Assembly (NCBI GenBank): GCA_016209155.1
Contig: JACQWU010000133.1
Location: 1-20,878 of the forward strand
Length of the DNA stretch: 20,878 bases
Source: Candidatus Desantisiibacteriota bacterium
GTDB lineage: Bacteria > JACRDZ01
Direction: 5' to 3'
Below are positions 1,889-20,738 of this stretch, piece after piece (the stretch's first letter is position 1; the number at the start of each line of letters is the position of its first letter). The translations under genes were made by a program, and so were the position numbers. The notes below the pieces were generated by a model, which saw nothing but the letters and a program-made list of their open reading frames with translations, did no database searches and was not told where the DNA came from.

Positions 1889-4800
1889 AGAATAACAATA
1901 AACCAAAAAAATGGCATTGAATTTGGTGCGCATTGGGAAAATAAAGAGAACATAGATACAGGTGAGCGGACTCGTGAATACACAATAGATTTTACCCGTC
2001 TGGATGATTTTTCCATCCCACCCATTTCAATACTTAACGGTACAGCAAAAATAGACATAGAATTCAGCAAACCGGTAGAAGGAGTATATGTGGGATTAAC
2101 CGGCACAACTGAAATATGGGATATAGCAAACGGTAAGTTGGATGAAAGCGGGAAAATATGGCATGGGGAAATATATTGGAATTGGTATGCAGGGAAGAAA
2201 GTGCTGAGCACATTCGGCGGAAATCAAAAACTTGTAATTCAGGCGAAAGACAAAAATAACCATTACAAACGTGAAGCGCAGGGACTGCCGGAACATGGCT
2301 ATGAACTTGATACCAGTCCTGAGACAATAGCAGTCTGTAATAGCGTATCACCGTATGAATGGAACAAATATGAAATGGCAAAAACATTTATACTGGATAA
2401 AAATCCTCCATACCATTTAGCCAGACCTGCTGATACAAATATTGATTTAAACATAATAAATATCCCGCTCAACAACGAAATCAAACCGGACGAAACAGTG
2501 GCAGTAGGTGGAGTAAGGATGAAGGCTGAAGGCGGAAGGCAGAATGAAGGAAAAATAAAAGTACTTGTAAATGGTTTTTTTGATGAATGTATTTCATACC
2601 TAAAGAGTTTAAACATAGAAGCAGGCACAATTTCTGTAAACGCAGATTACAGCGAACTTACAGGAGTCTCTCTGGTTATAATCCCGACAGGCGGATTAAC
2701 AGGACTCGGCGAATCAGAGCAGATGCATGAAATATTCACAACATACACAGCCTCCGGCGGAACGATTTTATGTTTCAGCCAGGCGCAGGGTGAGGACTAT
2801 AACGTACTGCCGGGAATTAATGAAGGATTATTTGATACCACATTAAGTTCACAAAGCAGAGCATATTTTTACGGTTTTCAGACTGACATGAGCTGCTGGA
2901 TGCGATCAGTAGTGCTTGGACAATATCATCCCGTACTCGCAGGGATGGAAAATAAAACCCCTAATATAGAAATTGACGGATTTATATATCGCGCACCGGA
3001 AAATGCGAATATTATACTTTCCCGTACAGCGAACTATTATCCTGCATATATAGTGTATAAAACAGGAAATCAACAAACGACAAATGCGCAGGGCAGTATA
3101 GTAATCACAAACCAATATAGCGACTGGGGACTTGCTCACAGCCAGACATCACATGAGAATTCCCGCCTTATAAAAGACACAATATCCTGGCTTGTAAGTC
3201 CAAAAATGTATTTTGACACAATCAAGCCCGTATATGGCAGCAGTATAACATATAATTACAATATGTCAATAGAAAAAATAGTACTGAAGAACGAAAGTTA
3301 TGACACAGCATATTACGCAAAAGTGTGGATAGATGATCCTGAAGGAAATAATGCGCCAGTATGGAATAATAATAATCCGATATATAATAACATCATAGAC
3401 CTGACAAATGCACCCATACCGCCATATAACTCAACAAACATAAGCGCAAATATTAATCTAAATATCGATTCAACATGGATATATGGAATATACAATATTG
3501 GATATGAATTAGGTAAAAATTCCACATGGAGCTCAACAGCAATAATAACAGAAAACAAATGGGCAGGAAGTTTTGGATTGCATAAAGACATAAAAGAAAA
3601 ATATAACACAACAAACATCACAGTAACACTTGTCTCAGACAAAGATGATTACGTAAAAGGTGAGATAGGAACATTTACAGCAATAATACGGAATAAAATG
3701 ACAGATAAGCCTGCCCCGTTATACTGTGAAATATATGTTGAACATACAGGCTGGATACAAAATAGCAGAAAAGAAGTAACAGTTCCTCCCGGCGGAGAAG
3801 AGAAATTTGATATAAAAGCAGGTCCAATGGACAAAACCGGTACATTTTTTTGTTCAATTAAAGCCGGATATGACCTCGCAGCAACAAGAAAATTTACAGT
3901 TTATGATAGACAGGTGGAAATGGAAATAAAGCCGGACAGAAAAGTCTACCTGCCGTATGAAACAGCGAAAATAGAGATAGAAGTAAAAAACAATCTATAT
4001 ATTAATCCCGGAGCATTAAGAGTTGAAACCAGAATATTAAATGATTTAAATGCGGAAAAATGGAATGCATATAATGTAATAAACTCAATCGATGCATTAT
4101 CAATAGCTAAAATATATGAATCAACAACATTTGATCCCGGATGGATGCGAGGGAAATATTACATAGAATCAAGAACATATGACGGAGGATTGAATGTAAT
4201 AGGTTATGACATAAAGACAATAGATTATTCCGAAACCAGAATAGAAATAACCGGTACCCCTGATTTCTCACACATGACATGGAAAGAAACTAATCCGCTT
4301 ACATTTAATATAACAAATACCGGAGGAACTAAATGCAGTGGAGGAGAAATAGCAATAAGTATGTATAGCCAAAATGGCGGAGACATAATAGCCAATAATA
4401 TTGTAAACATCCCTGCGCTTGATACAGGAAATTCCATATCAGTAACAGGAGAATTAAGCATAGATTGGAGCAGATTTTCAGAGGAAAAATACAGAATATA
4501 TTACACCCTGAGATATGATAACAGAGCATACACATATTCGGTGGAAATAGATGCATTTAAATATCTTGTAAAAAACAAATTCGATTCAGCATGGTACAGA
4601 CAGAAAGACACATTATCCGGAATTACAACAGTAAATTATCTGGGTAATATAGAAGACAGTACAGAGATAAAATTTAAAATATTAAATATCCCTGAACTTG
4701 CGGCATGGGAAACAAGCTGGATGTATAGATATGGCAGGACAACAAGAAGCAAAGAAAACACATACAAATATAACATACTTATACCGGAAAACATAAATAA

Positions 4801-7800
4801 AGGTGTATATGACATAGAACTTAAAGTAACAAAAAATGGAACAGACTTAAGAAGCTGTATAGACAGATTTATTATCCCCGGCTTTAGATTAAGTTCAAGG
4901 ATTATAGGATACGAAAGTACCAGTAACTCAGAAATAATAGAAATAGCAAACAGCGGAGGAATAAGAGGAAAAGGTGAATATAAAATTGAACTGCGAGATA
5001 ACACTGATTATCCTGTTATGTTTGCAAGATATGAAACAACACTCAACGTAAGAGATAAAATAGAAAAAGAAATTTTATTCCCTGACGGACTAAGAACAGG
5101 GAAATATTATTTTAAACTCAATGCATATGATTCAATAAATTTTGGAGAAACAAAATGGGATGAGATGAATATAACCGGCATAAGCGCGAATCTTACTGCT
5201 CTGCCGGTAGACTCTACGATATATAATACAACAAGCGCAAAAGTAAAAGTGGAAATAAAAAGTACAAGTAATCTGTCAATAAATAACAGTAAATTAAAAA
5301 TAAAAATAGGAAAACCAAATATAGCGCTTGTCCCGCCGGATGAAATAGATACCACATTCACCTTTACAATTAAAGAAAAACCTAATTCATTCAAAATGTA
5401 TAAATTTTCAAACAATGAAGAATGGATAATATGGGAGATGAATGGGGATATATACCTGAATTCAAAATTCAAAATTCAAAATTTAAAAATAGTTGCCGGC
5501 GGGAATAACCATGAGCCGGTAATGATTGAAGACAAAAGTCATAAATTATGGCTTGTTTATCGTAAAAATAACTCAATCTGGTACAGCACAACCAATAACT
5601 ATGGAACATCATGGGCAGAAATACAAATGGGGACAAAGGAACCGGAGAAGGAAATAGTATCAGGAACTAATCCGAAAATAATAGAAGTCGGGAGGGCGGG
5701 AAGCTCGGGAAGTGAGATACTGATATTTTATCTTAGACAGGATAAAGAGATTGCGTATAGATCGAATATTGATAATTTTACAGAAGAGGAAATTGTCCCG
5801 CTTCCGAAGGGATATAAAAGCAGTTTTGATGTGCTTGTTGACTCATCAACTCAAATATGGCTTTCATATGTTGGGGAGGATAGAAATATATATTATACAA
5901 AAGCAAATATAAACGCAGGAGCAGGTTTCGAATCCGCCCGTTCCTCAATAGCATGGCAGGGTAATTATCTCAGCGCAACAGGATATGCGAGGGAAAATAA
6001 AATTGCAGTGGCTGAAGCGGAGGAAATGATTTTAAGTGGAAAAAGTAAAGGAGTAACAAAGATAGAAGACAGAAGTCAGAATGCAGAAGTTATAACTGGA
6101 GTAAAATTATCGACTGGGTATGAAGCCGGATGGATGGAGAGTGAAGAAATTAGTTTACCGGATGTTGCAGAGATATTGAGTATAACACCGGTAACTCACG
6201 AACCCTTTTACTCATCCACACCTCAACTGAAATACAGATTCAGTGTCGGGGAAAAGTTATATGATTCAGTAATAAATAAACCTATGTTTAAAGTTAGGGA
6301 AGGCTGGCCCAAAAAATTATATGACGACTATTGGCTGTTTACATGTAACCCTGCGGTTGGAGATATAGACGGAGACGGTGAAAAGGAAGTAATTATAAAT
6401 ACAAGGAAAAATTTATATTCATGGAATGGAGACGGTACAAAATATGACAGTTTATTTCTTAATCCGTATAATACCGGATTTGGCGGATTTTCTGTCGTAC
6501 TGGATGATTTTAATCAGGATGGGATTGATGAAAGAGCAATTACCAGCCCATCGGGGAATCAAAGCAAAATTTCAATTATAAATAAATATAAACAGAATAT
6601 TTTTGATGAGATAATAACCCATTACTCTCAATTCAGCATACATTCCGGAGATATAACCGGAGATGGTAAGCCTGATTTGTTAGCATTTACTGAATTACCA
6701 AGAGGGTACAGTGGTCATTATTATATTGATTTGTATGGTTTACATTTATGGGACGTAGCGAATAAAAAAAAGATCGATGCTTACTATGCAACAACTGCAA
6801 CTGAAGGATACACATTACCATATATGGTAACATCGTATTGCGGAGGTTTGGGGACAGGTCTTTTTGATGTAGATAATGACGGGGCGGAAGAAGTAATTGC
6901 ATATAATGATACCGGATGGCTGAAAACATATGATACATATTATGATACAAATAATATTTCATTAAGATGGAAAGAAATAAAGAGTCTGTATAATAGTGAA
7001 AGTTATACCTATTATCCCGGGCTTGCTGTAGGGAATATGTTATTAGAGAGTGAATCAACAAAGATAGTAAAATTCAGCAATTATTTTATGAAAATATATG
7101 ATGTTAAAATGAATGGGCAGTGCGAACAAAATTCATGGTATATGCCTGGAAGAGATATGGGGCAGATTTCTCTTGGTGATATAGATGGAGATGGGAAGCT
7201 GGAAATAATGCTTTTATCCGGACGTTCACAAGGAGGATTATTTGATGTTATCAATTTAGACGGGAAAAAATATAACTTTCCGCTAAATTTGCCTGAACAC
7301 GCAAGTCATTTGAATTTTCCAATGCCGCAGGCTATAACAGGCGATATAAATGGAGATGGAGAGCAAGAAATAATTATAGCATCGGGAGATAAAATGTATG
7401 GATATCATAACACAGGAGAAGTGATAAAAAATTTTCCAATGAGATTTTATGATTCAGCAAGAAACATTTATGATCCTGTTTATTTTAATGGGGCAAGAGA
7501 TTTTACTAATTGCTATGTGCCTTTACCTTACAATTCACCGATATTAACAGACCTTGATGATGACGGAAAATTGGAGATAGTGGCAGCAGGTACAATAAAA
7601 AATTTTAATCAAACACAATGGGGCAGGCATCCTGTTATATATGTAATTGACACAAATGCATGGTATGACGAAGAAAATATTGAATGGGCACAGTTTGGCG
7701 CGAATAAAAAGCATAATGGCCGTTATGGCGATAATAAAGGTAAATTCTGGTATAAGCTGCAATATGCAAAATGGGCAAATTTAGAAGACAGAAGTCAGAC

Positions 7801-10800
7801 ATCAGAAGACAGAGGGCAGAAGACAGATGACAGAATAAAATTAAAAGCGGAATTTTTTAAAAATGGAATGGGAGACAGCACTTTGCCGGTGCTGGATAAA
7901 TTTAATATAGCGTATTTAGCAGGAATAAAAGGCGTAAATCCTCACATTATTGAACTGCCTGATGGGCGCAAAATAGTAGCATACAAAGAAAAAGGGCAGG
8001 TAAATTATACATGGAAATATGCCAAGCTTGAGGATTCACAGCCAATATTACCTATAGCACTTACAGACAAAGATATACAAAATGTAAATTTTTCATGGAT
8101 AGGTGATGAATTATATGAGGTGTGGTGCGAAAGTGACAGCACCGGATATACATTTAAAAGAGGTAAAATTGAGGGTGCTGGAATAGACTCATCAAATATT
8201 TTTTATACCTACGAAAGCACAATACCTGCGATTGCAGGAGGAGAAAGCATATCATATACGGTTGATTTTGGAAAAATACCGGAGTCGGGAAATTATCTTA
8301 TTGAAGCAGAGTTGAAATCTGACTTTGGGCAGAAAATAAGTGAAAACCAAAGCGAAATAATAGTGATGTCAGAGTCAGGTATTGCTATCAGGCTTGATAC
8401 AGATAAAAAGTTTTATTCTTCGGGAGAAAATGTAAATATAGATGTAACAGTTACAAATAACGGGATAAATACATATAACGGAGATGTGAAAGTTTTAAAA
8501 ATTACAGACATAACACCGGACGGGATAGAAATATATTCACAGAATGTTACGCTTACACCCGGTGAAATATATCAGTGTACAACAGGCACAATAGCTGAAG
8601 AGAATTTTCAGCTTATAGCAAAAGCCAATCCTTATGCTCTCCGAAACATCAAAATTGCAAAACCGGAAATACAGGCATACATTGATGCTCCGCAAATTGC
8701 AGGGAGAGAGAGTTTCCCTGTAACTTTAAGATTGTATAATCCGGCTGAAATGGAAATAAAATTAAATATAGCAATTAGCAATGAGCAACGTGCAATGAGC
8801 AATAATGAATTAGTTATAAAACCGGAAGAGTGGCAAATAGTAAAAAATGATATGAATATACAAGCTGATACGATTATTACTTATCAAATATCGTGTAATA
8901 ATTTTCCATCTATAAATAAAACAATTCAAAAAGAAATAAAATTCGGCGAAAAAACTGAAATTGTAATCACCCCTGAATATATTTATCCTGAAGGGAAAAT
9001 AAGTATACCGTACAGAATGAAGAACACTGGAGAACTTTTTCAAGACGCTATACGGGAAATAGAAATACGAAATAAAGCAAATGAAATAATATTGCATAAT
9101 AAAGCACAAGCATATATAGCAAAAGACGGATCAATAAATGATAATGTAATATTTACTTCATATCCTGGACAGTATGAGTTAAAAATAAAATTCGGGTTTG
9201 ACAGCAGTATACAGGGAATAAACGTATTACCGAAAGAAAAAGCAGAAATAGAAAAAGTAAATATAGGTAATTGCATTGATGGACTTGTCCCGATAAATTT
9301 CAATATATGCAATACCGGATATAACAATATAGGCGGACAGATAAAAATAAAAACAGGGTTTTACAGTGAAAGCCGGAGTATAAATATATCAAATGGAGAA
9401 GAAAAATGGTATACATTCAGGCTTAATCCGCAGGGAGTATCAGGCGGGAAATATCCTCTTTCTATAAATGTTGAAAGCGGTTCAGGAATAAATTTTGCAT
9501 ATGATACAAGCATAGAGATTAGCGGTTATGAATTTACAGCTATTCCTGTTACTCAAAATCCTGAGTATACGGCGGGAGCAGAAGGTGTATTTGCCATAAG
9601 AGTAAAAAATATTGGTGATAGATGGGGAAAAGCGGGTGTAACAATAAAAATGGGATCGTTCTACGAAGAAACAAAAACAGTATTGCTTGAAACAGACCAG
9701 TCGAAAGAAGAGGAAATAAACTTTAAAGTACCGGATGATATACCGGAAGGAGAATATAAAGTAGAAGTAAAAATTGAAAATAAAAAGGATCCTGTAATAA
9801 TTCCGTTCAGAGTAAAAGGATTAACCCTCGAAGTAAAAGCTGAGCTCGATAATAATGGATATAGAATAAATGATTCTCTTAAACTGAGGCTTGATATAAC
9901 AAATCATACAACATCAATCTCGCCAAAAATTTACATCAACGTTAAATATGATACCACTGATATAGAAAGAGATGTATCTCTGACAGGTATAAATAACCAG
10001 CTTGAGTTTAATATAAATTTAAGCAGAATAACAGGGCAGAAACTGTTTGTTGGGATCTATGATGGAAATACACACAGATCAATATATCTGAATGAATTAT
10101 ATGTGCGTGAAGCCGGAGAAATAATTAATGTTTTTGTTGATAAACAAGTATATTCCCCCGGTGATATTGTAAATATTACCATACAAAATGCGGATAACGG
10201 AGAAATAACACTTATCGGGCCGGCAGATTTTAAGATGACAAAACAAATAACAGCAGGAGAAACAAAAGAAGCGTTTACACTCGGACGCATTATTCCTGCC
10301 GGGCAATATTTCATTCAATATAATTACAAAATTCCTGACGGTGATAATAAATTTGAGGAAATAACCGGCAGTACAGCATTCGACATATCCGGAATAAATC
10401 TTGAAATATTATATTCAGGTCTTGAAAAAAATAAATACAGCTCAAAAGATACAATACGCGGAACATTAATTATAAAAAGCAGCAGCATGATAAAAACAAA
10501 TTTAATAGCATGGGTAAATGATCCTGAGGGAAATAATACCAATCTTTCAAATGGTGAATACAATATACGAATAGGAGAAAATGAAATAAAATTCAGCGGA
10601 GAATTTAATACACAAATAGCCGGCATCCATAAGGTGTTATATCTGATACAGGAAAAAGAAACAGGTGAATATTTAACAGGAGGAAGCTTTACTATAGAAG
10701 CGGGGAATATGAATCTAAGCGGAATAAAACTTGAGACGGAAGAATATCCTTACGGTACGGAACCTGTTAATATTATGGTATATACTTATGGAATAAATGG

Positions 10801-13800
10801 GGTATCCGGTGACATGGATATTGTGCTTGATACAACAACAATACAGACCAAACAGGTTCAAACCTCAGGAATAAACGGGTATAAAATGGAATTAACGCAG
10901 GATAAAATAATCCCAGGTAAACATATAATTACAGTAAAATTAAGAAGCGGAGAATTAACAAGCGAAGAAAAAACCGGATTTGATTACGGTACTAAATTGC
11001 CTGATCTTATTATAAAAAAAGTATCAGTTGATAATGCTATTGAAGAGGGATATAAAAAGATAAAAGTGGAAATTGAAAAACAAAGAGAATTGCAGGCAAG
11101 GAATATTGAGGTAAAAGCAGAGACGCAAAATTTTGCGTCTGTACGAACAATAGGAGAAACAATTATTCCTGAGCTTATTGAAAATGGAGCAAAAACAAAT
11201 GTTGAGTTTATATTTGATTCCTCAACCTTTAGTCTTCAGTCTTCATCCTTCAACCTGATTATAACAGTTGATCCTGAAAATATGATACGTGAATATGATG
11301 AAAGCAACAATATCCGGAAAGAGGGAATATATATTCCGGCTGCACCTGTAATAAATGAACTGCCTTTATCGACCAATCAAAAAGATATTAAAATAACCGG
11401 AACAGCAGATGCATATAGTCTTATAAAAATATACTGTAATGGAAAATTTATCGGTGAAGCATACGCTGATGGTGAAGGTAATTTTGAATACATAATAACA
11501 CTGAAAGAAGGCAAAAACACAATAACAGCAGAAGCATACAATAGCAAAGGAGAAAAAAGTTTTATTTCATTGGCATATACAACTTTATTTGATACTGCTT
11601 TGCCGCCGCCGGAACCGGAATGCAAACTCAATATAAACAGCAGTATGAATAAAGAATACAAAAAAGCGCTGGTTTATTTAGGACATGATGCTGAATATGA
11701 TTCCGGAACAATAGCAAAAATTTTGGACAGCACTAATGCCGGTTACAGCATAATTAAAGCATGCAGAAATACTTTTCGCAGTGAACTGCGCAGCGGACAG
11801 TATAACATGTATATAATCGATAATGCATCGAAACATGATGAAAAAAAGTGCAATGTATGCGGTATAAAAGTTTCTTCGGGTGAATGGAAAGACACTATGT
11901 ATGAATTGTCCGAGGCAGTTTATAGAGGGGATGGATTTATATTTATAAAAACAGACCCTGAAACATTTTATCCGGGTTTGTTTAAAAATCTCCTTGGAGT
12001 AAAAGGAGGCGGATATAAAGATAAAAAAGAACTTACTTTAAGAGTTACAGATACAACCTGGCATGATAATCTGGAAATTGAGCTTGCAAGTGACATCTTT
12101 GAAGTAAAACCTACATCCGGAATAATAAGAGCAGATCTGGAATTTTATAATAAAACATTAAAAGAAAAAGTATGGCCGGCTATAGTTACCAATAACTATG
12201 GCAGAGGAAAAACAGTTACATTGACATATGAACCTGAAAATAGTCTTGACGTAGAAAACAAAGCAAAATGCGATATGCTTATGAAAACAATGATAAAGTA
12301 TCTTGAACCTGATGAAATAAAAGCAGAACCGTTTGAGATGATACCTGTTAATGTAAGTGTAAAAGCAGATAAAGCCTGCGATTTGATTTTATGGGGAAAT
12401 CATCAAGATAATCTCAGCCTTAAAAACACAGACGGACAAATAACAAGTCCGCATGATATACGGTGGAATGTAAACATCTTAGACAGTACGGAAATAAAAA
12501 ATACTCAGTCTATTTTTATTTTACCTGATGAAAAAGGAACATCCTCGTATTCAATTTTAACGCAATATAAAAATGGAGATAATTGGCATATTTATAACAC
12601 AACCACTATAAATCTTGAAATTAAAGAAATTATTGAGGAAAAGCTTGATAGGACAAAGCTCTGTGTAGAAAATCTGGAAATAAATGAAAATGATGAAGAT
12701 GAGCATGAAATAAAAGAATACATTATATATAAACTAAATCTGATTAAAAACAGAGGGAAAAACAGCATAGATGATATTGAAAGAAGCATAAATGATCTTA
12801 TTGATTGTATAAAAAAAATAGAAAAGCTTGAAGAAGAAGGAACATCCTTATTAATTGAAATACAAAAAATACACTTTGAACTGTCATATATAATGCAGGG
12901 TTATGAAGGTATGTACAGCAGAAAAATTGAAGATGAACCTCCCGTAAGTGACACTGTTCCACCGGAAATAATCACAAAATATCCTGATAATTTGTCGCTT
13001 AATATAAAATCCGGTGCGATAATAAATGCCATATTCTCAGAAGATATGGATAGTTCGAGTGTAAATACAAATACGTTTTATATAGAAGACAGAAGTCAGG
13101 AATCAGAAGACAGAGTTGAAGGCAGGGTAAATTATAATAATCGAATTGTAACCTTTACGCCAACAAATTTATTAGAACCGAATACAACTTATACAGCTAC
13201 GATAACAAAAGGAGTTAAAGATATTTCCGGCAATTATATGGCGGAAGATTATATATGGAGTTTTATAACAATAAATCCTGAAGTGGAAATAATCTTTCCG
13301 GAAATATTATCAGCAAGTCCATATGATGGCGGAATAGATATAGTGCGGGATACAACAATCAGCGCAGTTTTTTCAAAGGATATGGATACATCAAGTATAA
13401 ATGGAAGTACGTTTTATATAGAAGACAGAAGTCAGGAATCAGAAGACAGAGTTGAAGGCAGGGTAAATTATAATAATCGAATTGTAACCTTTACGCCAAC
13501 AAATTTATTAGAGCCGAATACAACTTATACGGTTACGATAACAAAAGGAGTTAAAGATATTTCCGGCAATTATATGGCGGGAGATTATATATGGAACTTT
13601 ATAACAGAAAAAGAGCCGGATATAATAGAACCCCCTATTCCCGACACGATACCTCCTGAAATCATATCAACCAATCCGGAGAATAATGCTGCTTATATAA
13701 ATCCGGGGATAATATTAAGCGCAGTTTTTTCAGAAAAAATTGATAATGCAAGTATAAAAGAGGATTCATTTATATTACAGAATGTAAATAATAATATTAT

Positions 13801-16039
13801 TTCAGGACAGCTTTTGCGCGGAACAAAATCAATCGTATTTATACCGTATAATAATCTGGAATATAACATGGGATATAAAGTAAAAATATTGTCAGGGATA
13901 AAAGATTTAAGCGGTAATAAAATAACGGAAGACTATATATGGAGCTTTAGTACCCCGGATAAAATATTTCCTGAAGTATTAAGTGTGAGTCCGGCTGATG
14001 GTACGAAAGATGTATTATGTGACACAAAAATAAATGTGAAATTTACAAAAGCAATGGATACATCGACAATAAATATGAATACATTTATATTAAAAGATAT
14101 TAAAAATAATACCGTACCCGGTAGTTTTATTTTTACTGATACAACTTTTGTATTTATTCCATCTGCTCCTTTTAAAGAATCAATGATATATATTGCTGAA
14201 ATTAAAAGTGAGATTAAAGACAAAACAGGTAATAATTTACTTAAGGGATATATATGGAATTTTTCTATAAAGGAATATGGATGGATAAAAGCGGCAAGCG
14301 GTACAAGTCATACAATAGCAATTAAATCAAATGGAGCGCTCTTTACCTGTGGAGCAAATAATTTTGGGCAATTGGGCGATGGAACAAATACAAATAAAAA
14401 CACCCCGGTTCAGATAGGCGCTGATAATGAATGGCTGGAGGCAGCAGGCGGTGTAAGTCATACTGTTGCAATAAAAACAAACGGGACATTATGGGCATGG
14501 GGGAAAAATGATTACGGGCAATTGGGCGATGGAACTCTATCAAACAGAAATGCTCCTGTACAAATTACAAATGATGGAAATTGGTTGAAAATAGCATCCG
14601 GATGGTATCATAACACTGCAATAAAAACAGACGGTACATTATGGGGCTGGGGATATAATTATTACGGACAATTAGGTGATGGAACAAATGTAACCAGATA
14701 TTCACCTGTACAAATCGGAACAAATAATAATTGGCTAAAAGCAGCAGCTGGAACCGGATATACAATGGCGATAAAAACAGATGGTACATTATGGGCCTGG
14801 GGATATAATAATTATGGACAATTAGGCGATGGAACAAATACAAATAAAAGTGTGCCTGTACAAATCGGCACAGGGACGGATTGGACAGAAATAGCCTGCG
14901 GCAGTGACCGTTCAGCAGGAATAAAATCTAATGGAACGCTCTGGATGTGGGGATATGGAATTAATAATATTCCCGTGCAAACAGGCACTGATAGAAACTG
15001 GAGTAAAGTAGTATGCAGTCAATATCATACAGTAGCAATAAAGACAGACGGCACATTATGGGCATGGGGATCTAATGATTACGGACAGTTAGGCGATGGG
15101 ACGAATATAGACAAAAGCACACCGGCACAAATAGGCACATTAAATAACTGGTCATTAATATCTGCCGGATATGAGTATACGATAGCTCTTACATCCGATG
15201 GTTCTATTTTTACCTGGGGACGCAATATATCAGGACAATTAGGCGATGGAACAACAGTAAATAAAAATAAACCGATAGAAATCGGTCAGGATACTTTAAG
15301 ACCAATGATTATATCAAATAATCCGCAAAATAATTTGCAAAATATTGCTCTAAGTACAACGATTGGTGTCAGGTTTTCTGATGAAATGGATATATCAAGT
15401 TTAAATCCGGATACCTTTACAGTTTATACAGGCGGGATAAAAGTAATCGGCACAGTAGTATATAATAATAATGAAGCAGTATTTATTCCGGAAATTTTAC
15501 ATCCTGATACTAAATATACAGCAGTAATTACAACAGGCGTAAAAGATAGTTCCGGAAATGCTTTAAAAGAAAATTATATATGGAGTTTTAAGACAATTGA
15601 TACAATGCCGCCTGAAATTGTATCTGCTATACCCTGTAATAATGCTATCGGTGCAGCACCTGACACAATAATCAGGGTTAAATTTTCAGATTTTATGGAT
15701 AGCTCGAGCATCAATGAAAATACATTTATACTAAAAGCCCGGAGTGGAGATATTACGCATGGAACAATAGCATATAATGGACTTGAGGCAAAATTCACGC
15801 CGGTAAATATTCTTGCGCCATATGTTAATTATTATTTAGAAATAAATGGAATAAAAGATAAAGCAGGTAATTTAGTTGAAACAGAGATATATACATTTAA
15901 AACAGGCAGTATGGAAATAACCCCTGCATGGATAAAAATAGGAAAAGGCGCAGATTTTACTGCAGCGCTCAAATCTGATGGTACGCTCTTCACATGGGAA
16001 AATAATAATAACGGACAATTAAGCGACGGAACAAAGTAG
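1844..16039 (+). CDS. Giant modular beta-sandwich/beta-propeller protein (central piece of the split gene)
   Basis: This is a 4,731-codon ORF. The first ATG, at 1844, is only the first start in frame; it lies inside the duplicated 88 bp with no ribosome site, and the frame is open from 1799. Domain order by residue: amidotransferase-fold-like region (about 238-450); many Ig-like/NEW3/CARDB-like beta-sandwich repeats (about 453-1176); an Asp-box near 1250; FG-GAP calcium-loop repeats (about 1500-1960); more Ig-like domains including a CARDB (about 3053-3164); a second amidotransferase-like region (about 3270-3486); a charged helical segment (about 3593-3690); four Big_5 domains (about 3703-4144); an RCC1 propeller (about 4146-4483); two Big_5 domains; and the start of another RCC1 array. 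In known families these are extracellular binding and spacer modules, so a cell-surface or secreted adhesin-like role is the reasonable inference. It stops inside an RCC1 blade. If it is not rejoined to the signal peptide it would be cytoplasmic and probably not made. Confidence 0.8.
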   Translation: MKLWYDIVNEPPYVKRITINQKNGIEFGAHWENKENIDTGERTREYTIDFTRLDDFSIPPISILNGTAKIDIEFSKPVEGVYVGLTGTTEIWDIANGKLDESGKIWHGEIYWNWYAGKKVLSTFGGNQKLVIQAKDKNNHYKREAQGLPEHGYELDTSPETIAVCNSVSPYEWNKYEMAKTFILDKNPPYHLARPADTNIDLNIINIPLNNEIKPDETVAVGGVRMKAEGGRQNEGKIKVLVNGFFDECISYLKSLNIEAGTISVNADYSELTGVSLVIIPTGGLTGLGESEQMHEIFTTYTASGGTILCFSQAQGEDYNVLPGINEGLFDTTLSSQSRAYFYGFQTDMSCWMRSVVLGQYHPVLAGMENKTPNIEIDGFIYRAPENANIILSRTANYYPAYIVYKTGNQQTTNAQGSIVITNQYSDWGLAHSQTSHENSRLIKDTISWLVSPKMYFDTIKPVYGSSITYNYNMSIEKIVLKNESYDTAYYAKVWIDDPEGNNAPVWNNNNPIYNNIIDLTNAPIPPYNSTNISANINLNIDSTWIYGIYNIGYELGKNSTWSSTAIITENKWAGSFGLHKDIKEKYNTTNITVTLVSDKDDYVKGEIGTFTAIIRNKMTDKPAPLYCEIYVEHTGWIQNSRKEVTVPPGGEEKFDIKAGPMDKTGTFFCSIKAGYDLAATRKFTVYDRQVEMEIKPDRKVYLPYETAKIEIEVKNNLYINPGALRVETRILNDLNAEKWNAYNVINSIDALSIAKIYESTTFDPGWMRGKYYIESRTYDGGLNVIGYDIKTIDYSETRIEITGTPDFSHMTWKETNPLTFNITNTGGTKCSGGEIAISMYSQNGGDIIANNIVNIPALDTGNSISVTGELSIDWSRFSEEKYRIYYTLRYDNRAYTYSVEIDAFKYLVKNKFDSAWYRQKDTLSGITTVNYLGNIEDSTEIKFKILNIPELAAWETSWMYRYGRTTRSKENTYKYNILIPENINKGVYDIELKVTKNGTDLRSCIDRFIIPGFRLSSRIIGYESTSNSEIIEIANSGGIRGKGEYKIELRDNTDYPVMFARYETTLNVRDKIEKEILFPDGLRTGKYYFKLNAYDSINFGETKWDEMNITGISANLTALPVDSTIYNTTSAKVKVEIKSTSNLSINNSKLKIKIGKPNIALVPPDEIDTTFTFTIKEKPNSFKMYKFSNNEEWIIWEMNGDIYLNSKFKIQNLKIVAGGNNHEPVMIEDKSHKLWLVYRKNNSIWYSTTNNYGTSWAEIQMGTKEPEKEIVSGTNPKIIEVGRAGSSGSEILIFYLRQDKEIAYRSNIDNFTEEEIVPLPKGYKSSFDVLVDSSTQIWLSYVGEDRNIYYTKANINAGAGFESARSSIAWQGNYLSATGYARENKIAVAEAEEMILSGKSKGVTKIEDRSQNAEVITGVKLSTGYEAGWMESEEISLPDVAEILSITPVTHEPFYSSTPQLKYRFSVGEKLYDSVINKPMFKVREGWPKKLYDDYWLFTCNPAVGDIDGDGEKEVIINTRKNLYSWNGDGTKYDSLFLNPYNTGFGGFSVVLDDFNQDGIDERAITSPSGNQSKISIINKYKQNIFDEIITHYSQFSIHSGDITGDGKPDLLAFTELPRGYSGHYYIDLYGLHLWDVANKKKIDAYYATTATEGYTLPYMVTSYCGGLGTGLFDVDNDGAEEVIAYNDTGWLKTYDTYYDTNNISLRWKEIKSLYNSESYTYYPGLAVGNMLLESESTKIVKFSNYFMKIYDVKMNGQCEQNSWYMPGRDMGQISLGDIDGDGKLEIMLLSGRSQGGLFDVINLDGKKYNFPLNLPEHASHLNFPMPQAITGDINGDGEQEIIIASGDKMYGYHNTGEVIKNFPMRFYDSARNIYDPVYFNGARDFTNCYVPLPYNSPILTDLDDDGKLEIVAAGTIKNFNQTQWGRHPVIYVIDTNAWYDEENIEWAQFGANKKHNGRYGDNKGKFWYKLQYAKWANLEDRSQTSEDRGQKTDDRIKLKAEFFKNGMGDSTLPVLDKFNIAYLAGIKGVNPHIIELPDGRKIVAYKEKGQVNYTWKYAKLEDSQPILPIALTDKDIQNVNFSWIGDELYEVWCESDSTGYTFKRGKIEGAGIDSSNIFYTYESTIPAIAGGESISYTVDFGKIPESGNYLIEAELKSDFGQKISENQSEIIVMSESGIAIRLDTDKKFYSSGENVNIDVTVTNNGINTYNGDVKVLKITDITPDGIEIYSQNVTLTPGEIYQCTTGTIAEENFQLIAKANPYALRNIKIAKPEIQAYIDAPQIAGRESFPVTLRLYNPAEMEIKLNIAISNEQRAMSNNELVIKPEEWQIVKNDMNIQADTIITYQISCNNFPSINKTIQKEIKFGEKTEIVITPEYIYPEGKISIPYRMKNTGELFQDAIREIEIRNKANEIILHNKAQAYIAKDGSINDNVIFTSYPGQYELKIKFGFDSSIQGINVLPKEKAEIEKVNIGNCIDGLVPINFNICNTGYNNIGGQIKIKTGFYSESRSINISNGEEKWYTFRLNPQGVSGGKYPLSINVESGSGINFAYDTSIEISGYEFTAIPVTQNPEYTAGAEGVFAIRVKNIGDRWGKAGVTIKMGSFYEETKTVLLETDQSKEEEINFKVPDDIPEGEYKVEVKIENKKDPVIIPFRVKGLTLEVKAELDNNGYRINDSLKLRLDITNHTTSISPKIYINVKYDTTDIERDVSLTGINNQLEFNINLSRITGQKLFVGIYDGNTHRSIYLNELYVREAGEIINVFVDKQVYSPGDIVNITIQNADNGEITLIGPADFKMTKQITAGETKEAFTLGRIIPAGQYFIQYNYKIPDGDNKFEEITGSTAFDISGINLEILYSGLEKNKYSSKDTIRGTLIIKSSSMIKTNLIAWVNDPEGNNTNLSNGEYNIRIGENEIKFSGEFNTQIAGIHKVLYLIQEKETGEYLTGGSFTIEAGNMNLSGIKLETEEYPYGTEPVNIMVYTYGINGVSGDMDIVLDTTTIQTKQVQTSGINGYKMELTQDKIIPGKHIITVKLRSGELTSEEKTGFDYGTKLPDLIIKKVSVDNAIEEGYKKIKVEIEKQRELQARNIEVKAETQNFASVRTIGETIIPELIENGAKTNVEFIFDSSTFSLQSSSFNLIITVDPENMIREYDESNNIRKEGIYIPAAPVINELPLSTNQKDIKITGTADAYSLIKIYCNGKFIGEAYADGEGNFEYIITLKEGKNTITAEAYNSKGEKSFISLAYTTLFDTALPPPEPECKLNINSSMNKEYKKALVYLGHDAEYDSGTIAKILDSTNAGYSIIKACRNTFRSELRSGQYNMYIIDNASKHDEKKCNVCGIKVSSGEWKDTMYELSEAVYRGDGFIFIKTDPETFYPGLFKNLLGVKGGGYKDKKELTLRVTDTTWHDNLEIELASDIFEVKPTSGIIRADLEFYNKTLKEKVWPAIVTNNYGRGKTVTLTYEPENSLDVENKAKCDMLMKTMIKYLEPDEIKAEPFEMIPVNVSVKADKACDLILWGNHQDNLSLKNTDGQITSPHDIRWNVNILDSTEIKNTQSIFILPDEKGTSSYSILTQYKNGDNWHIYNTTTINLEIKEIIEEKLDRTKLCVENLEINENDEDEHEIKEYIIYKLNLIKNRGKNSIDDIERSINDLIDCIKKIEKLEEEGTSLLIEIQKIHFELSYIMQGYEGMYSRKIEDEPPVSDTVPPEIITKYPDNLSLNIKSGAIINAIFSEDMDSSSVNTNTFYIEDRSQESEDRVEGRVNYNNRIVTFTPTNLLEPNTTYTATITKGVKDISGNYMAEDYIWSFITINPEVEIIFPEILSASPYDGGIDIVRDTTISAVFSKDMDTSSINGSTFYIEDRSQESEDRVEGRVNYNNRIVTFTPTNLLEPNTTYTVTITKGVKDISGNYMAGDYIWNFITEKEPDIIEPPIPDTIPPEIISTNPENNAAYINPGIILSAVFSEKIDNASIKEDSFILQNVNNNIISGQLLRGTKSIVFIPYNNLEYNMGYKVKILSGIKDLSGNKITEDYIWSFSTPDKIFPEVLSVSPADGTKDVLCDTKINVKFTKAMDTSTINMNTFILKDIKNNTVPGSFIFTDTTFVFIPSAPFKESMIYIAEIKSEIKDKTGNNLLKGYIWNFSIKEYGWIKAASGTSHTIAIKSNGALFTCGANNFGQLGDGTNTNKNTPVQIGADNEWLEAAGGVSHTVAIKTNGTLWAWGKNDYGQLGDGTLSNRNAPVQITNDGNWLKIASGWYHNTAIKTDGTLWGWGYNYYGQLGDGTNVTRYSPVQIGTNNNWLKAAAGTGYTMAIKTDGTLWAWGYNNYGQLGDGTNTNKSVPVQIGTGTDWTEIACGSDRSAGIKSNGTLWMWGYGINNIPVQTGTDRNWSKVVCSQYHTVAIKTDGTLWAWGSNDYGQLGDGTNIDKSTPAQIGTLNNWSLISAGYEYTIALTSDGSIFTWGRNISGQLGDGTTVNKNKPIEIGQDTLRPMIISNNPQNNLQNIALSTTIGVRFSDEMDISSLNPDTFTVYTGGIKVIGTVVYNNNEAVFIPEILHPDTKYTAVITTGVKDSSGNALKENYIWSFKTIDTMPPEIVSAIPCNNAIGAAPDTIIRVKFSDFMDSSSINENTFILKARSGDITHGTIAYNGLEAKFTPVNILAPYVNYYLEINGIKDKAGNLVETEIYTFKTGSMEITPAWIKIGKGADFTAALKSDGTLFTWENNNNGQLSDGTK
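2516..2543 (+). repeat. Heptanucleotide repeat, AGGATGA family
   Basis: Four consecutive 7-mers, AGGATGA AGGCTGA, AGGCGGA AGGCAGA, followed by a decayed unit. They lie in frame in the giant gene and are translated as part of the linker MKAEGGRQNEG, just before the first amidotransferase-like domain. Confidence 0.7.
2555..3195 (+). other. Amidotransferase-fold-like domain 1 within the giant protein
   Basis: The translated segment starts KIKVLVNGFFDECISYLKSL, then has SLVIIPTGGLTGLGESEQ and TASGGTILCFSQAQGEDYNV. The alternation of hydrophobic strands with a 'decide that it is a path, then a glycine-rich turn' pattern resembles the class I glutamine amidotransferase-like (ThuA/DUF4350-type) fold. 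I see no convincing nucleophile-elbow Cys-His-Glu triad, so it is more likely a structural or binding domain. The assignment rests on pattern only. Confidence 0.4.
5459..5486 (+). repeat. Heptanucleotide repeat, AATTCAA family
   Basis: Three exact AATTCAA units followed by AATTTAA, contiguous and translated in frame as the linker NSKFKIQNLK. A 7-bp unit cycles through all three codon phases, so the protein repeat is also seven residues. Confidence 0.85.
5590..5613 (+). other. Asp-box (sialidase-type) motif in the giant protein
   Basis: The residues TTNNYGTSW fit the S/T-x-D/N-x-G-x-x-W Asp-box found in beta-propellers of sialidases and other secreted proteins. The surrounding sequence (KLWLVYRKNNSIWYST) alternates like propeller strands. 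One box only is clear. Confidence 0.45.
6065..6092 (+). repeat. Heptanucleotide repeat, GAAGACA family, copy 1
   Basis: Four 7-mers: GAAGACA, GAAGTCA, GAATGCA, GAAGTTA. In frame, they encode EDRSQNAEV, between the Asp-box segment and the FG-GAP region. Confidence 0.75.
6340..7720 (+). repeat. FG-GAP/VCBS-type calcium-binding propeller repeats in the giant protein
   Basis: Seven calcium-loop signatures recur: GDIDGDGEKE, DDFNQDGIDE, GDITGDGKPD, DVDNDGAEE, GDIDGDGKLE, GDINGDGEQE and TDLDDDGKLE. Each is followed by a short beta strand such as VIIN or EIVAAG. Seven units match a seven-blade integrin-alpha-like propeller. In known proteins the DxDxDG loops bind Ca2+, so folding outside the cell would depend on calcium. 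Confidence 0.85.
7784..7832 (+). repeat. Heptanucleotide repeat, GAAGACA family, copy 2 (longest)
   Basis: Seven consecutive 7-mers, variants of GAAGACA (GAAGACA, GAAGTCA, GACATCA, GAAGACA, GAGGGCA, GAAGACA, GATGACA). They are translated as EDRSQTSEDRGQKTDDR, a seven-residue periodic hydrophilic linker just after the FG-GAP propeller. Confidence 0.9.
8771..8805 (+). repeat. Heptanucleotide repeat, GCAATGA family
   Basis: Five 7-mers: GCAATTA, GCAATGA, GCAACGT, GCAATGA, GCAATAA. Translated in frame as AISNEQRAMSNN inside an Ig-like domain. Confidence 0.8.
11121..11140 (+). repeat. 20-bp perfect palindrome inside coding sequence
   Basis: AGACGCAAAA followed directly by TTTTGCGTCT, a perfect inverted repeat with no spacer, lying in the CARDB-like domain and encoded as ETQNFAS. 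Palindromes with this AGACGC...GCGTCT layout are, as I recall, common dispersed intergenic elements in cyanobacteria and some other lineages. Here it has been accommodated in frame. Confidence 0.8.
11227..11254 (+). repeat. Heptanucleotide repeat, opposite orientation (CTTCATC)
   Basis: CTTTAGT, CTTCAGT, CTTCATC, CTTCAAC. The reverse complement belongs to the GATGAAG/GACTGAAG type and so resembles the families seen elsewhere in the gene on the plus strand. It is translated as FSLQSSSFN in the CARDB-like domain. The insertion therefore tolerates both orientations. Confidence 0.7.
11650..12300 (+). other. Amidotransferase-fold-like domain 2 within the giant protein
   Basis: Starts KKALVYLGHDAEYDSGTIAK, with YNMYIIDNAS, YRGDGFIFIKTD and GRGKTVTLTYEPEN, the strand/turn order of the amidotransferase-like fold seen near the N-terminus. 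A CNVC pair lies in an insertion (KKCNVCGIKVSSGEW). No catalytic triad is obvious. The two copies bracket the central Ig-like/FG-GAP part of the protein. Confidence 0.35.
12610..12910 (+). other. Charged helical segment of the giant protein
   Basis: About 100 residues rich in E, K, I and L (IEEKLDRTKLCVENLEINEN, SIDDIERSINDLIDCIKKIE, IQKIHFELSYIMQGYEG), with hydrophobic residues every three to four positions. It is the only clearly helical part of an otherwise beta protein and separates the second amidotransferase-like domain from the Big_5 array. Role unknown: a stalk, dimerisation helix or flexible joint. Confidence 0.5.
13072..13268 (+). repeat. Near-identical duplicated block, copy 1
   Basis: Matches 13408-13604 at an offset of 336 bp (112 codons, one Big_5 unit), with about six mismatches counted by eye over some 197 bases. 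It includes the heptanucleotide array. Confidence 0.85.
13085..13119 (+). repeat. Heptanucleotide repeat, GAAGACA family, copy 3
   Basis: GAAGACA, GAAGTCA, GGAATCA, GAAGACA, then a decayed unit. Translated as EDRSQESEDR in the first Big_5 domain, between its two sheets. Confidence 0.8.
13408..13604 (+). repeat. Near-identical duplicated block, copy 2
   Basis: Second copy of the 13072-13268 block in the next Big_5 unit. The flanks diverge at once on both sides, so the exchange was confined to part of the domain. Confidence 0.85.
13421..13455 (+). repeat. Heptanucleotide repeat, GAAGACA family, copy 4
   Basis: Same units and the same order as the copy at 13085, at the equivalent position of the second Big_5 domain. 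It was therefore carried along by the domain duplication rather than inserted independently. Confidence 0.8.
14275..15290 (+). repeat. Complete seven-blade RCC1 propeller in the giant protein
   Basis: Seven units of about 50 residues, each with an AIKTDGTLWAWG-type strand pair. All but the fifth carry GQLGDGT; the fifth lacks it and is shorter. Seven blades equal one closed propeller. The first blade has FTCG in place of WAWG. Bacterial RCC1-repeat proteins are mostly extracellular binding scaffolds, so a nuclear-exchange-factor role is not implied. Confidence 0.9.
15295..15905 (+). repeat. Two further Big_5 domains between RCC1 arrays
   Basis: Units begin RPMIISNNPQNN and PPEIVSAIPCNN. They carry FSDEMD and FSDFMD motifs; the first ends with NYIWSF and the second with a shortened IYTFKTG. 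They act as spacers between the first and second RCC1 propellers. Confidence 0.85.
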
Positions 16040-16045
16040 TTACCT
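16023..16045 (+). other. Second frame break, inside an RCC1 blade
   Basis: The upstream frame reads GQLSDGTK then TAG at 16037-16039. The adjacent frame is open from 16023 and, from 16041, reads YLIIALKTNGTLFAWG, the second half of a blade. The 23-25 residues that normally lie between GDGT and the AIKT strand are missing, so a deletion that is not a multiple of three has occurred. Confidence 0.8.
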
Positions 16046-16106
16046 TATTATAGCATTAAAAACCAATGGGACACTCTTTGCATGGGGATTAAATAATTAT
16101 GGAGAG

Positions 16107-17768
16107 TTGGGAGATGGAACACATACAAATAGAAACATACCGGCACAAATAGGGAGTGATAATGATTGGATAGAAATTGCTGCCGGTGGAGAAGAGTTAT
16201 ACGCACATACGGCTGCTATAAAAAAAGATGGGACGCTTTTTGCATGGGGTTCAAATGGCTGTGGACAATTAGGTGATGGAATAAATATTGATAGAAATGT
16301 CCCAACTCAAATAGGCAGTGATAATGATTGGGTAAGTATTTCCTGCGGCATGGATTTTACAATGGCGCTTAAGTCAAACGGTACATTATGGGCATGGGGA
16401 AGCAATGGGTATTATCAATTGGGAGATGGAACGAATATAAACAGAAATATCCCTGTACAAATTACAACAGGCAGAGATTGGCTAAAAATAGCTGCCGGAA
16501 AAATCCACAAAATTGGAATAAAAAAAGACGGCACACTATGGGCATGGGGATGGAATAGTCATGGACAGCTTGGAGATGGAACGAATTTTTTTACCGGCAT
16601 ACCGCATCAAATAGGGACATCAAAAGATTGGCTGGAAGTAAAAGCAGGTACGGATTATACAATAGCAATAAAGAAAGACGGCTCATTATGGTCCTGGGGC
16701 TGGAATGCTTCAGGACAATTGGGTAATGGAACAAATATAGATAAAAATATACCTGAAAAAATTGATAAATGGGCAAAAGCAGCCTGCGGAGAATCTCATG
16801 TTCAGGCAATAAAGACAGATAGCAGAGTTTGGTCATGGGGGAAAAATGATTATGGACAATTAGGTGATAGAACAAATATAAGCAGAAATATACCAATACC
16901 TGATGTGACATGGCAGGCAATATCCTGCGGTACTGATAATACAATAGCAATAAGAGATGATGGCACTCTATTTAGCTGGGGATCGGGAATAGTTAAACCG
17001 GTTCAGATTGGCGAAAAAACAATTTTTAAAGAAATAGCACAAAGTAAATCTTCATATACAATGAGAATAAAAGATAATGGGACATTATGGGTATCCGGAT
17101 TAAATAATTACGGACAATTGGGCGATGGAACATATGTAGATAAATATACACCTATGCAATCAGGCAATGAAAACACATGGAAAATAGTTCAAAACGGCAA
17201 ATATCATAGCGCTGCAATAAAAACAGATGGTACATTATGGACATGGGGATACAATGGATATGGCGAGTTAGGTGATGGTTCATGGGCAGACAGCAATGAA
17301 CCTATAAAAATAAATAATAATACTAACTGGTCAAAAATAGCGGCAGGTGATTATTATACAATAGCGCTAAAGGGAGACAGCACCTTATGGACATGGGGAT
17401 GCAATGAATCGGGCGAGTTAGGAGATGGCACAACAATAAACAAAAATATTCCTGCGCAACTGGGAATAGATACAAACTGGAAAGATATAGCATGCGGCAG
17501 GTATCATACAATAGCGTTAAAGGGAGACGGTACATTGTGGGCCTGGGGACATAACTATTACGGCGAGTTAGGTGATGGAACAAATGTTGATAAATATTTA
17601 CCTGTACAAATTGGTACTCTCAATAATTGGACGGGAATATCAGCCGGAGCATATTATTCAATCGGGACAAAAAATAATGGAACTTTATGGACATGGGGAA
17701 TAAATGAATACGGACAATTGGGATCTGGTACAGGAGAGGATGTAAATGCACCGGTTGAGGTTAAATAG
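16107..17768 (+). CDS. C-terminal RCC1-repeat piece of the split giant protein
   Basis: The open frame really begins at 16023. The TTG at 16107 falls inside the ELGDGT motif and has no ribosome site, so this is not an independent gene start. The product is made wholly of RCC1 blades: with the two half blades around the break I count about 13 units, and the expected number for two closed propellers is 14. One unit (SWGSGIVKPVQ) is short like the fifth blade of the first propeller. WVSGLNNYG replaces the usual WxWG once. The protein ends GSGTGEDVNAPVEVK with no anchor or sorting signal. Downstream lies a REP array rather than a clear terminator. It is translated only if the frame is restored. 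Confidence 0.75.
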   Translation: MGDGTHTNRNIPAQIGSDNDWIEIAAGGEELYAHTAAIKKDGTLFAWGSNGCGQLGDGINIDRNVPTQIGSDNDWVSISCGMDFTMALKSNGTLWAWGSNGYYQLGDGTNINRNIPVQITTGRDWLKIAAGKIHKIGIKKDGTLWAWGWNSHGQLGDGTNFFTGIPHQIGTSKDWLEVKAGTDYTIAIKKDGSLWSWGWNASGQLGNGTNIDKNIPEKIDKWAKAACGESHVQAIKTDSRVWSWGKNDYGQLGDRTNISRNIPIPDVTWQAISCGTDNTIAIRDDGTLFSWGSGIVKPVQIGEKTIFKEIAQSKSSYTMRIKDNGTLWVSGLNNYGQLGDGTYVDKYTPMQSGNENTWKIVQNGKYHSAAIKTDGTLWTWGYNGYGELGDGSWADSNEPIKINNNTNWSKIAAGDYYTIALKGDSTLWTWGCNESGELGDGTTINKNIPAQLGIDTNWKDIACGRYHTIALKGDGTLWAWGHNYYGELGDGTNVDKYLPVQIGTLNNWTGISAGAYYSIGTKNNGTLWTWGINEYGQLGSGTGEDVNAPVEVK

Positions 17769-17837: not shown

Positions 17838-17862
17838 GCAAGGCTGAAGCCTTGCCCTACAG
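17838..17862 (+). repeat. REP palindrome, left of the transposase gene (forward)
   Basis: GCAAGGCTGAAGCCTTGC hairpin followed by the tail CCTACAG. The same unit occurs downstream of the transposase gene at 18437 and 18482. Confidence 0.85.
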
Positions 17863-17874
17863 TTTTGTCAATAG

Positions 17875-17899
17875 TGTAGGGCAATCCTTCAGGGTTGCA
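17875..17899 (+). repeat. REP palindrome, left of the transposase gene (reverse)
   Basis: TGTAGGGCAATCCTTCAGGG then TTGCA, with its CCTACA tail in the opposite orientation to the unit at 17838. The pair is separated by about 12 bases. Two inverted REPs with a short spacer form the mobile REPIN/BIME arrangement. Confidence 0.8.
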
Positions 17900-17962
17900 T
17901 TAAATTATCTGGTTATCAAGGCTTTAACCATTGTTTTTTTATTCATTAATCAGGTGAAAAAA

Positions 17963-18433
17963 TTGAATAAATACAAAAAACGCATTCGATTAAAAAATTT
18001 TGATTATATTGGAATATATCGATATTTTATAACTTTATGTACTCATGATAATAGCCCAATATTTAATAATAATATTCTTATTACAAAACTCACAAATATT
18101 CTAAAAATAGAATCAGAAAAATTTAGATTTAAGATATGGATATATTGTTTTATGCCTGATCATGTACATCTTCTAATAGAGGGTAAAGATTTAGAATCGG
18201 ATATGAAGAAATTAATATCAACATATAAACAATATACAGGATTCTATTACAAAAAAGACACAGGAAAATGTCTTTGGCAAGTTAATTATTATGAACATGT
18301 GTTAAGAAAAGAAGAAGATACATTAAGTGTTGCGAAATATATTTTAAATAATCCGGTAAGGAAAGGATTAGTAGAAGATTATAAGCAATATGATTATATC
18401 GGTTCATTTGAATTAGATATAATGCAATTATGA
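17963..18433 (+). CDS. REP-associated tyrosine transposase (RAYT, Y1/IS200-like)
   Basis: 156 residues from a TTG start, chosen because AGGTGA at 17952-17957 sits five bases upstream and because the protein then begins NKYKKRIRLKNFDYIGIYRY, where RAYT proteins normally begin. The longer frame from 17852 starts inside a REP palindrome and is not credible. The HUH-type motif DHVHLL has His67 and His69. The family signature LWQVNYYEHVLRKEED follows at 104-119, then YILNNPVRKGL at 126-136. RAYTs are single-strand nucleases that cut and join REP sequences; the nucleophile tyrosine should be one of those in the STYKQYTGFYY stretch or beyond, which I cannot assign. REPs lie on both sides, the downstream one beginning three bases after the stop. 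The key residues are intact, so it may be active. Confidence 0.9.
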   Translation: MNKYKKRIRLKNFDYIGIYRYFITLCTHDNSPIFNNNILITKLTNILKIESEKFRFKIWIYCFMPDHVHLLIEGKDLESDMKKLISTYKQYTGFYYKKDTGKCLWQVNYYEHVLRKEEDTLSVAKYILNNPVRKGLVEDYKQYDYIGSFELDIMQL

Positions 18434-20186: not shown

Positions 20187-20738
20187 ATGCCAACAGATAA
20201 AGAACGATTTGAGATATTATTAGAACATGTAATTAGTAAAATTGATGTAGTTGCTGAAGGTCATGGAATATTGGTAAATAAAATTGATACTCTTGATCGT
20301 AAAGTTGACGATACCCGCACAGAATTAGTAAATATGATAATGACCAGCAATAAAGTTTTACATGAGAAAATAGATAATGTAGAAATGAAGCTAACAGAAA
20401 AAATAGATAATGTAAAAATAGAGCTGAATGAGAAAATAGATAATGTTGAAACAAGACTAAATGAGAAAATAGATAATGTTGAAATGAAGCTAACGGAAAA
20501 AATAGATAATGTAAAAATAGAGTTAAATGAGAAAATAGATAATGTTGAAACAAAATTAAGTGAAAAAATAGATAATATTGATAAGCGTTTGATTAATGTT
20601 GAGAAAAAGGTTGATAGAATTGAACCTTTAGAAAAAAAAGTTGATAAAATAAATGACACACTATCATACGTTCTTAAACGTCAGGATGCTCAAGAAGAAA
20701 AAACAGATAAAATTTATAGAAAAGTGTTTGTAAATTAA
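20187..20738 (+). CDS. Hendecad-repeat coiled-coil protein
   Basis: 183 residues. The ATG at 20187 is nine bases after AGAGGAG (20171-20177). Residues 60-136 are seven 11-residue repeats of the type EKIDNVxxxL, i.e. 33-base DNA units starting at 20364, 20397, 20430, 20463, 20496, 20529 and 20562. Eleven-residue periodicity predicts a weakly right-handed or nearly straight coiled coil rather than a heptad one. The three repeat variants (EMKLT, KIELN, ETRLN) occur in the same order twice, so a 99-base block was duplicated (20364-20462 and 20463-20561, about 7 mismatches). Flanks are charged helices ending KTDKIYRKVFVN. No signal peptide or membrane segment. Function is unknown; low-complexity proteins of this kind often scaffold or bind membranes. 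It has its own ribosome site and probably its own promoter, which I could not identify. Confidence 0.85.
   Translation: MPTDKERFEILLEHVISKIDVVAEGHGILVNKIDTLDRKVDDTRTELVNMIMTSNKVLHEKIDNVEMKLTEKIDNVKIELNEKIDNVETRLNEKIDNVEMKLTEKIDNVKIELNEKIDNVETKLSEKIDNIDKRLINVEKKVDRIEPLEKKVDKINDTLSYVLKRQDAQEEKTDKIYRKVFVN
20364..20594 (+). repeat. 33-bp tandem repeats in coding sequence (seven units)
   Basis: Seven contiguous 33-base units starting GAGAAAATAGATAAT or GAAAAAATAGATAAT, organised as a duplicated 99-base triplet plus one terminal unit. Such arrays expand and contract by slippage in whole hendecads without breaking the frame. Confidence 0.9.

Follow-up and report, generated by a model that had tools for sequence, protein, structure and literature searches.

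Heptanucleotide tandem repeats in frame within a giant modular gene family of a Candidatus Desantisiibacteriota genome rich in period-7 arrays

The locus analysed here raises the question of how tandem repeats with a 7-bp unit, which is not codon-sized, can occupy a coding region, and of what gave repeats of differing sequence the same period. The window, that is, the whole stretch of 20,878 nucleotides from a Candidatus Desantisiibacteriota bacterium (contig JACQWU010000133.1), was described in the first-pass annotation as holding eight such arrays embedded in frame in one coding region. Tandem Repeats Finder (TRF) confirmed all eight, each with a 7-bp period and 0% indels, and the ORF listing places them within a single ORF (Table 1). 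Head-to-tail 7-bp units free of indels are what characterizes heptameric simple sequence repeats, the prokaryotic long simple sequence repeats (LSSR), although the window arrays are short and imperfect, with TRF matches of 75–95%. Those at 13084 and 13420 are less strong than the rest and are mutual copies within a duplicated Big_5 domain, so that the independent arrays number seven. An AlphaFold model of an array-bearing Big_5 domain (mean pLDDT 80) places the array in a predicted loop between strands 43–47 and 58–63; where a Big_5 domain of this protein has no array, the loop is shorter by three or four residues.

Table 1. Period-7 arrays of the window and the ORF that contains them
Feature	Position	Strand	Peptide	Remarks	Source
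Array AGGATGA/AGGCTGA/AGGCGGA/AGGCAGA	2515..2544	+	VRMKAEGGRQN	WGAAGNC superfamily	TRF
Array AATTCAA	5459..5488	+	NSKFKIQNLK		TRF
Array AGAAGAC	6059..6089	+	KIEDRSQNAE		TRF
Array AGAAGAC	7783..7835	+	LEDRSQTSEDRGQKTDDR	About 7 units	TRF
Array AGCAATG	8769..8803 (TRF 8770..8803)	+	IAISNEQRAMSN		TRF
Array CTTCAGT/CTTCATC	11227..11256 (TRF 11227..11245)	-	TFSLQSSSFNL	WGAAGNC superfamily, opposite orientation	TRF
Array AGAAGAC	13084..13114	+	IEDRSQESEDRVEGR	Loop of Big_5 domain	TRF
Array, second copy of the 13084 array	13420..13450	+		Via domain duplication	TRF
Giant modular ORF, 4731 aa	1844..16039	+		CARDB, FG-GAP, MG2, six Big_5, RCC1 repeats	Pfam

Several other features surround the giant gene. 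An exact 88-bp tandem duplication (88 is no multiple of 3) lies at 1713–1888, between the giant ORF and an ORF at 415–1803 with a signal-like hydrophobic N-terminus, and it could be a recent mutation, a phase switch or an assembly artefact. Past the stop of the giant ORF (16022–16110), RCC1 repeats run on in a different frame in an ORF at 16107–17768, and the gene may thus have been broken a second time. A Y1 transposase gene (IS200-like, possibly RAYT) follows shortly downstream at 17852–18433. In addition, coding tandem repeats of 33 bp (99 bp) occupy 20362–20581 in an ORF (20187–20738) resembling a coiled coil.

The units had been assigned to several unrelated families, and this part of the description did not hold. 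AGGATGA is a rotation of TGAAGGA, and so is CTTCATC once it is reverse-complemented; this heptamer is one or two base changes away from GAAGACA. Furthermore, TGAAGGC, TGAAGAC and AGAAGAC are single-substitution steps apart, and mixed arrays of them were found in paralogues. The five names collapse to three families, namely WGAAGNC, AATTCAA and GCAATGA.

The periodicity was examined by a lag-7 scan of the giant ORF, which at threshold 11 gave six arrays with period 7 and none with period 6 or 8. The mean number of period-7 arrays fell to 0.06 when the ORF was shuffled by an order-3 Markov model and to 0.01 when codon order was shuffled. When synonymous codons were shuffled with the protein kept, the mean was 0.34 with a maximum of 2 in 200 shuffles. 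Because this shuffle preserves the protein and the arrays nevertheless vanish, a seven-residue protein repeat, which had been named as the reading that would undo the observation, is no explanation; the period-7 pattern resides in DNA, not merely in protein.

The scan was extended to 762 kb of the 3.08-Mb host genome. At threshold 13, 35 arrays had period 7, compared with 2 for period 6 and 8 for period 8, bearing out the suspected genome-wide excess over the neighbouring periods, a further feature of prokaryotic LSSR. In a 592-kb subset (33% GC) at the same threshold, period 7 gave 22 arrays against a Markov expectation of 0.25, while periods 6 and 8 gave 1 and 6, respectively. With genes called crudely as the longest ORFs of at least 90 aa, array density at threshold 11 was 229 per Mb in intergenic DNA, 8 per Mb in ordinary coding DNA and 412 per Mb in coding DNA on contigs bearing giant-family genes. 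In the proposed comparison of intergenic with coding DNA, arrays are thus frequent between genes and on the giant-family contigs, and rare in other genes. The composition of the arrays was as follows: none of the 18 sampled intergenic arrays was of the WGAAGNC type, and, genome-wide, exact matches to three AGRNRNC units were confined to three giant-family contigs.

Some intergenic arrays of this genome occur as inverted pairs around an AT-rich loop (L055 394–498, L279 436–549, L294 and L295 at about 1450–1640, and L006 2829–2905), with RNA fold z-scores of -3.3 to -8.0. A constant loop core common to the intergenic GCAATGA hairpins was rejected, as a search with up to 3 mismatches matched the source copy alone. 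Outside the window's genome, neighbouring array pairs were inverted in 23 of 96 cases, compared with 7.2 expected.

How these arrays fit into a reading frame follows from their arithmetic. A 7-bp array gives the same seven-residue cycle in all frames, so that a stop-free unit is safe in each of them and only the net length counts. On the other hand, a pure AGGCTGA or GAGCAAT array gives a TGA every 21 bp, and intergenic GCAATGA arrays do retain the TGA-bearing unit. The claim that the coding arrays avoid stops was supported by varied escapes at the stop-phase units, where the would-be TGA is replaced by GGA at 2515, CGT at 8769, CGA in paralogue L082 and TTA in paralogue L085. Among the WGAAGNC-type coding arrays, 20 of 22 lie in the orientation that gives hydrophilic peptides of E/D/R/S/Q/K, counts that are not independent as they include duplicated domains and paralogues. 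It thus seems that the protein acts as a filter through which only stop-free, hydrophilic versions of the arrays survive.

Relatives of the giant ORF were found on contigs C287, C285, C313 and C45, with 33–44% identity over long stretches, and a weaker one on C196. Note that these contigs were chosen by protein similarity, not for arrays. Five of 17 paralogue arrays coincided with window arrays, compared with a random mean of 0.84 and a maximum of 4 in 500 trials. The two Big_5 array sites, which in the window score under the scan threshold, likewise coincide. Specifically, the site at 5459 holds AATTCAA in the window and an AGAAGAC array in L085; at 6059, paralogues carry shorter or different sequence; at 7783, L082, L084 and L085 hold shorter AGGCAGA/TGAAGGC sequence, with arrays or remnants of varying length; and at 8769, AGCAATG is present in the window and L082, AGGCTGA runs into AGAAGAC in L084, and L060 has no array. 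The same loops are therefore occupied again in paralogues, although length or repeat family has frequently changed. The paralogue array sites examined showed neither a target-site duplication nor a constant boundary.

The phase of neighbouring blocks bears on how such changes arise. Blocks differing by up to 2 bases shared a 7-bp phase in 104 of 110 cases, while blocks of clearly different families did so in 1 of 10, as expected from mutation plus slippage or re-amplification. Together with the Okeania differences described below, this phasing is consistent with mutation and re-amplification within an array, and with different families being born or inserted separately. Hybrid arrays that switch family on an unbroken 7-bp grid, which would have hinted at a sequence-blind maker, were discarded on the same count.

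We consider it probable that the arrays are heptameric simple repeats in a genome prone to them, which arise in a slippage-like manner, are remodelled and pass a reading-frame filter. In this scheme, arrays would be born locally through slippage-like tandem duplication, altered by point mutation, re-amplified and later lost. Ordinary proteins would be intolerant of them, whereas large modular proteins would tolerate arrays in loops and inter-domain linkers, as long as the overall length preserves the frame and TGA is avoided. WGAAGNC may be common in the giant family since the majority of its units carry no stop in any frame and specify E/D/R/S/Q/K. The arrays may be no more than tolerated linkers. 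Several points count against this explanation. Slippage by a single unit would throw the gene out of frame, so that slow evolution would be expected of coding arrays, and yet their per-base density in the family is like that of intergenic DNA; moreover, a swap of repeat family at one site is an unnatural outcome of slippage alone. Nor does the explanation account for the split of genomes into rich and poor ones, and the one clean change in unit number was seen in Okeania, not in this species. The absence of WGAAGNC-type units from the sampled intergenic arrays means that the dominant coding family may have spread within the gene family by recombination rather than by fresh births.

Comparison with other bacteria separates the period from the unit sequence. 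Three AGAAGNC units were present in 13 of 290 bacterial genomes from many families, and four GAAGNC units were found in more than 10 phyla among the matches listed (Cyanobacteria, Verrucomicrobia, Planctomycetota, Acidobacteria, Nitrospirota, Nitrospinota, Omnitrophota, Bacteroidota, Calditrichota, Chloroflexota, Proteobacteria and others). In 546 kb around these listed loci, each selected for carrying one array, 200 arrays had period 7, 7 had period 6 and 18 had period 8. In DNA not picked for arrays, ten WGAAGNC- or GCAATGA-positive genomes gave 35, 5 and 7 arrays for periods 7, 6 and 8, respectively, and 20 WGAAGNC-negative genomes gave 19, 3 and 0, nearly all from four genomes. The sampled genomes are thus split into heptamer-rich and heptamer-poor ones, some with none in 20 kb. 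Units other than WGAAGNC were identical across phyla in 5 cases compared with 4.6 expected, supporting the view that what genomes have in common is the period, not the sequence, and removing a global sharing of all families from consideration. Read backwards, AGAAGAC and GAGYAAY each yield a rotation of the starting unit or a close relative of it; reversed patterns are therefore no independent control for these units and did not serve as a null.

Change in orthologous arrays was visible in Okeania. One orthologous array site measured 70, 70, 63 and 60 bp in four genomes. At a second site, two genomes carry AAGAAGG-type arrays, a third an insert with heptamer arrays of other families, and the fourth 7 bp. 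The single clean case of a changed unit number (70 vs 63) comes from Okeania only; the genomes searched included none from the genus or family of the window's host. At L200 1104–1337 and 6682–6908, Okeania has many-copy repeats some 200 bp long with TAATTAT heptamer arrays at their borders.

It is unlikely, in our judgement, that the arrays are mobile or recombining sequences that have been dispersed by copying between sites, chiefly inside the gene family, and so came to occupy many loops in similar form. The confinement of exact AGRNRNC matches to family contigs, the phylum range of the listed GAAGNC matches and the other-family arrays in the Okeania insert would be in line with such copying; however, no such mark of insertion as a target-site duplication or constant boundary was seen at the paralogue sites, unit families differ at shared sites, and most families other than WGAAGNC are not common to phyla above chance. 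Improbable to a similar degree is a dedicated machine, present in certain lineages, that would produce tandem 7-nt units regardless of their sequence; the first-pass annotation had raised a shared maker of heptamers as a possibility. The surplus of period 7 relative to 6 and 8, seen in this genome, in the ten positive genomes pooled and in 4 of 20 others, the uneven richness of genomes and, WGAAGNC aside, the chance-level sharing of units would all suit it. The candidate genes, on the other hand, did not follow: in small groups of 11 rich and 14 poor genomes, reverse transcriptase (RVT_1) was missing from 9 of the 11 rich ones and Y-family polymerase from 5 of 11, and in a further comparison Y1 transposase counts did not differ between WGAAGNC/GCAATGA-positive and other genomes (p = 0.42; groups of 15 and 21 genomes). 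Y1/RAYT transposase, reverse transcriptase, MutS loss and Y-family polymerase were accordingly rejected as a common factor, as none tracked rich or positive genomes, and the out-of-phase blocks of different families also speak against the machine. Likewise rather unlikely, and offered as a tentative proposal, is that some lineages might possess a process that expands DNA in 7-nt steps irrespective of sequence, with tolerant protein loops as lasting sites of heptamer-family replacement.

Phase-variable contingency switches, in which one 7-bp unit lost or gained turns the giant protein on or off, are very unlikely: a one-unit change does shift the frame, and heptamer repeats are discussed for Haemophilus phase variation (PMC8262952), but the near-perfect, slippable array of a contingency locus was not found, the eight window arrays being scattered along the gene and as imperfect as their TRF matches indicate. 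Protein-level selection for seven-residue hydrophilic linkers is scarcely credible as the origin of the repeats and is refuted as their sole cause, for although the peptides are mostly hydrophilic, lie in loops and favour the sense orientation 20 to 2, the DNA period is lost on synonymous shuffling, intergenic DNA is also array-dense, and a seven-residue period requires a 21-bp period only, not one of 7.

Heptameric simple repeats in a prone genome, our preferred reading, have known counterparts. The bacterial preference for seven-base simple repeats has been remarked since 2007, together with a guess at the polymerase footprint: according to PMC4692102 and PMC4679880, period 7 is the most abundant class of LSSR in most genomes (Mrazek and co-workers 2007), and slippage tied to the polymerase footprint was proposed as the cause. 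The same period-7 abundance is seen here. Polymerase-footprint slippage alone would not explain rich versus poor genomes, and as the sampled genomes split in this way, the cause of the excess is testable by association. In the same papers, coding units are likeliest to be multiples of three, whereas the present 7-bp arrays are in frame, about as dense as in intergenic DNA, and occupy conserved sites at which families have been swapped. The likeness to cyanobacterial heptanucleotide repeats noted at first reading was supported: the short tandemly repeated repetitive sequences (STRR) of Calothrix and the GGGGA(C/T)T repeats of Nostoc (PMC4692102) are also tandem heptanucleotides with several sequences per genome, but the Nostoc heptamers are mostly intergenic, of other sequence and in a cyanobacterial host, unlike the coding arrays of this different bacterium. 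The TAACTGA repeats of Beggiatoaceae (PMC4679880) are alike in being dispersed heptamer arrays across distant phyla, and their author also remarks that stop codons limit repeats in genes; they differ in being a single sequence, mostly intergenic, for which translational regulation was proposed. Borg tandem repeats (PMC9879509) are alike in that DNA repeats make new, often disordered stretches in extracellular proteins, but Borg in-ORF units are all divisible by three, so that the 7-bp arrays do not belong to that type. A heptameric excess in many bacteria is thus already published; as far as the searched literature shows, what is new is that the arrays have an in-frame refuge in coding DNA, that sites are conserved while families are exchanged at them, and that stop codons are escaped. 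This gene family also shows how a repeat of non-codon size can still colonise coding DNA.
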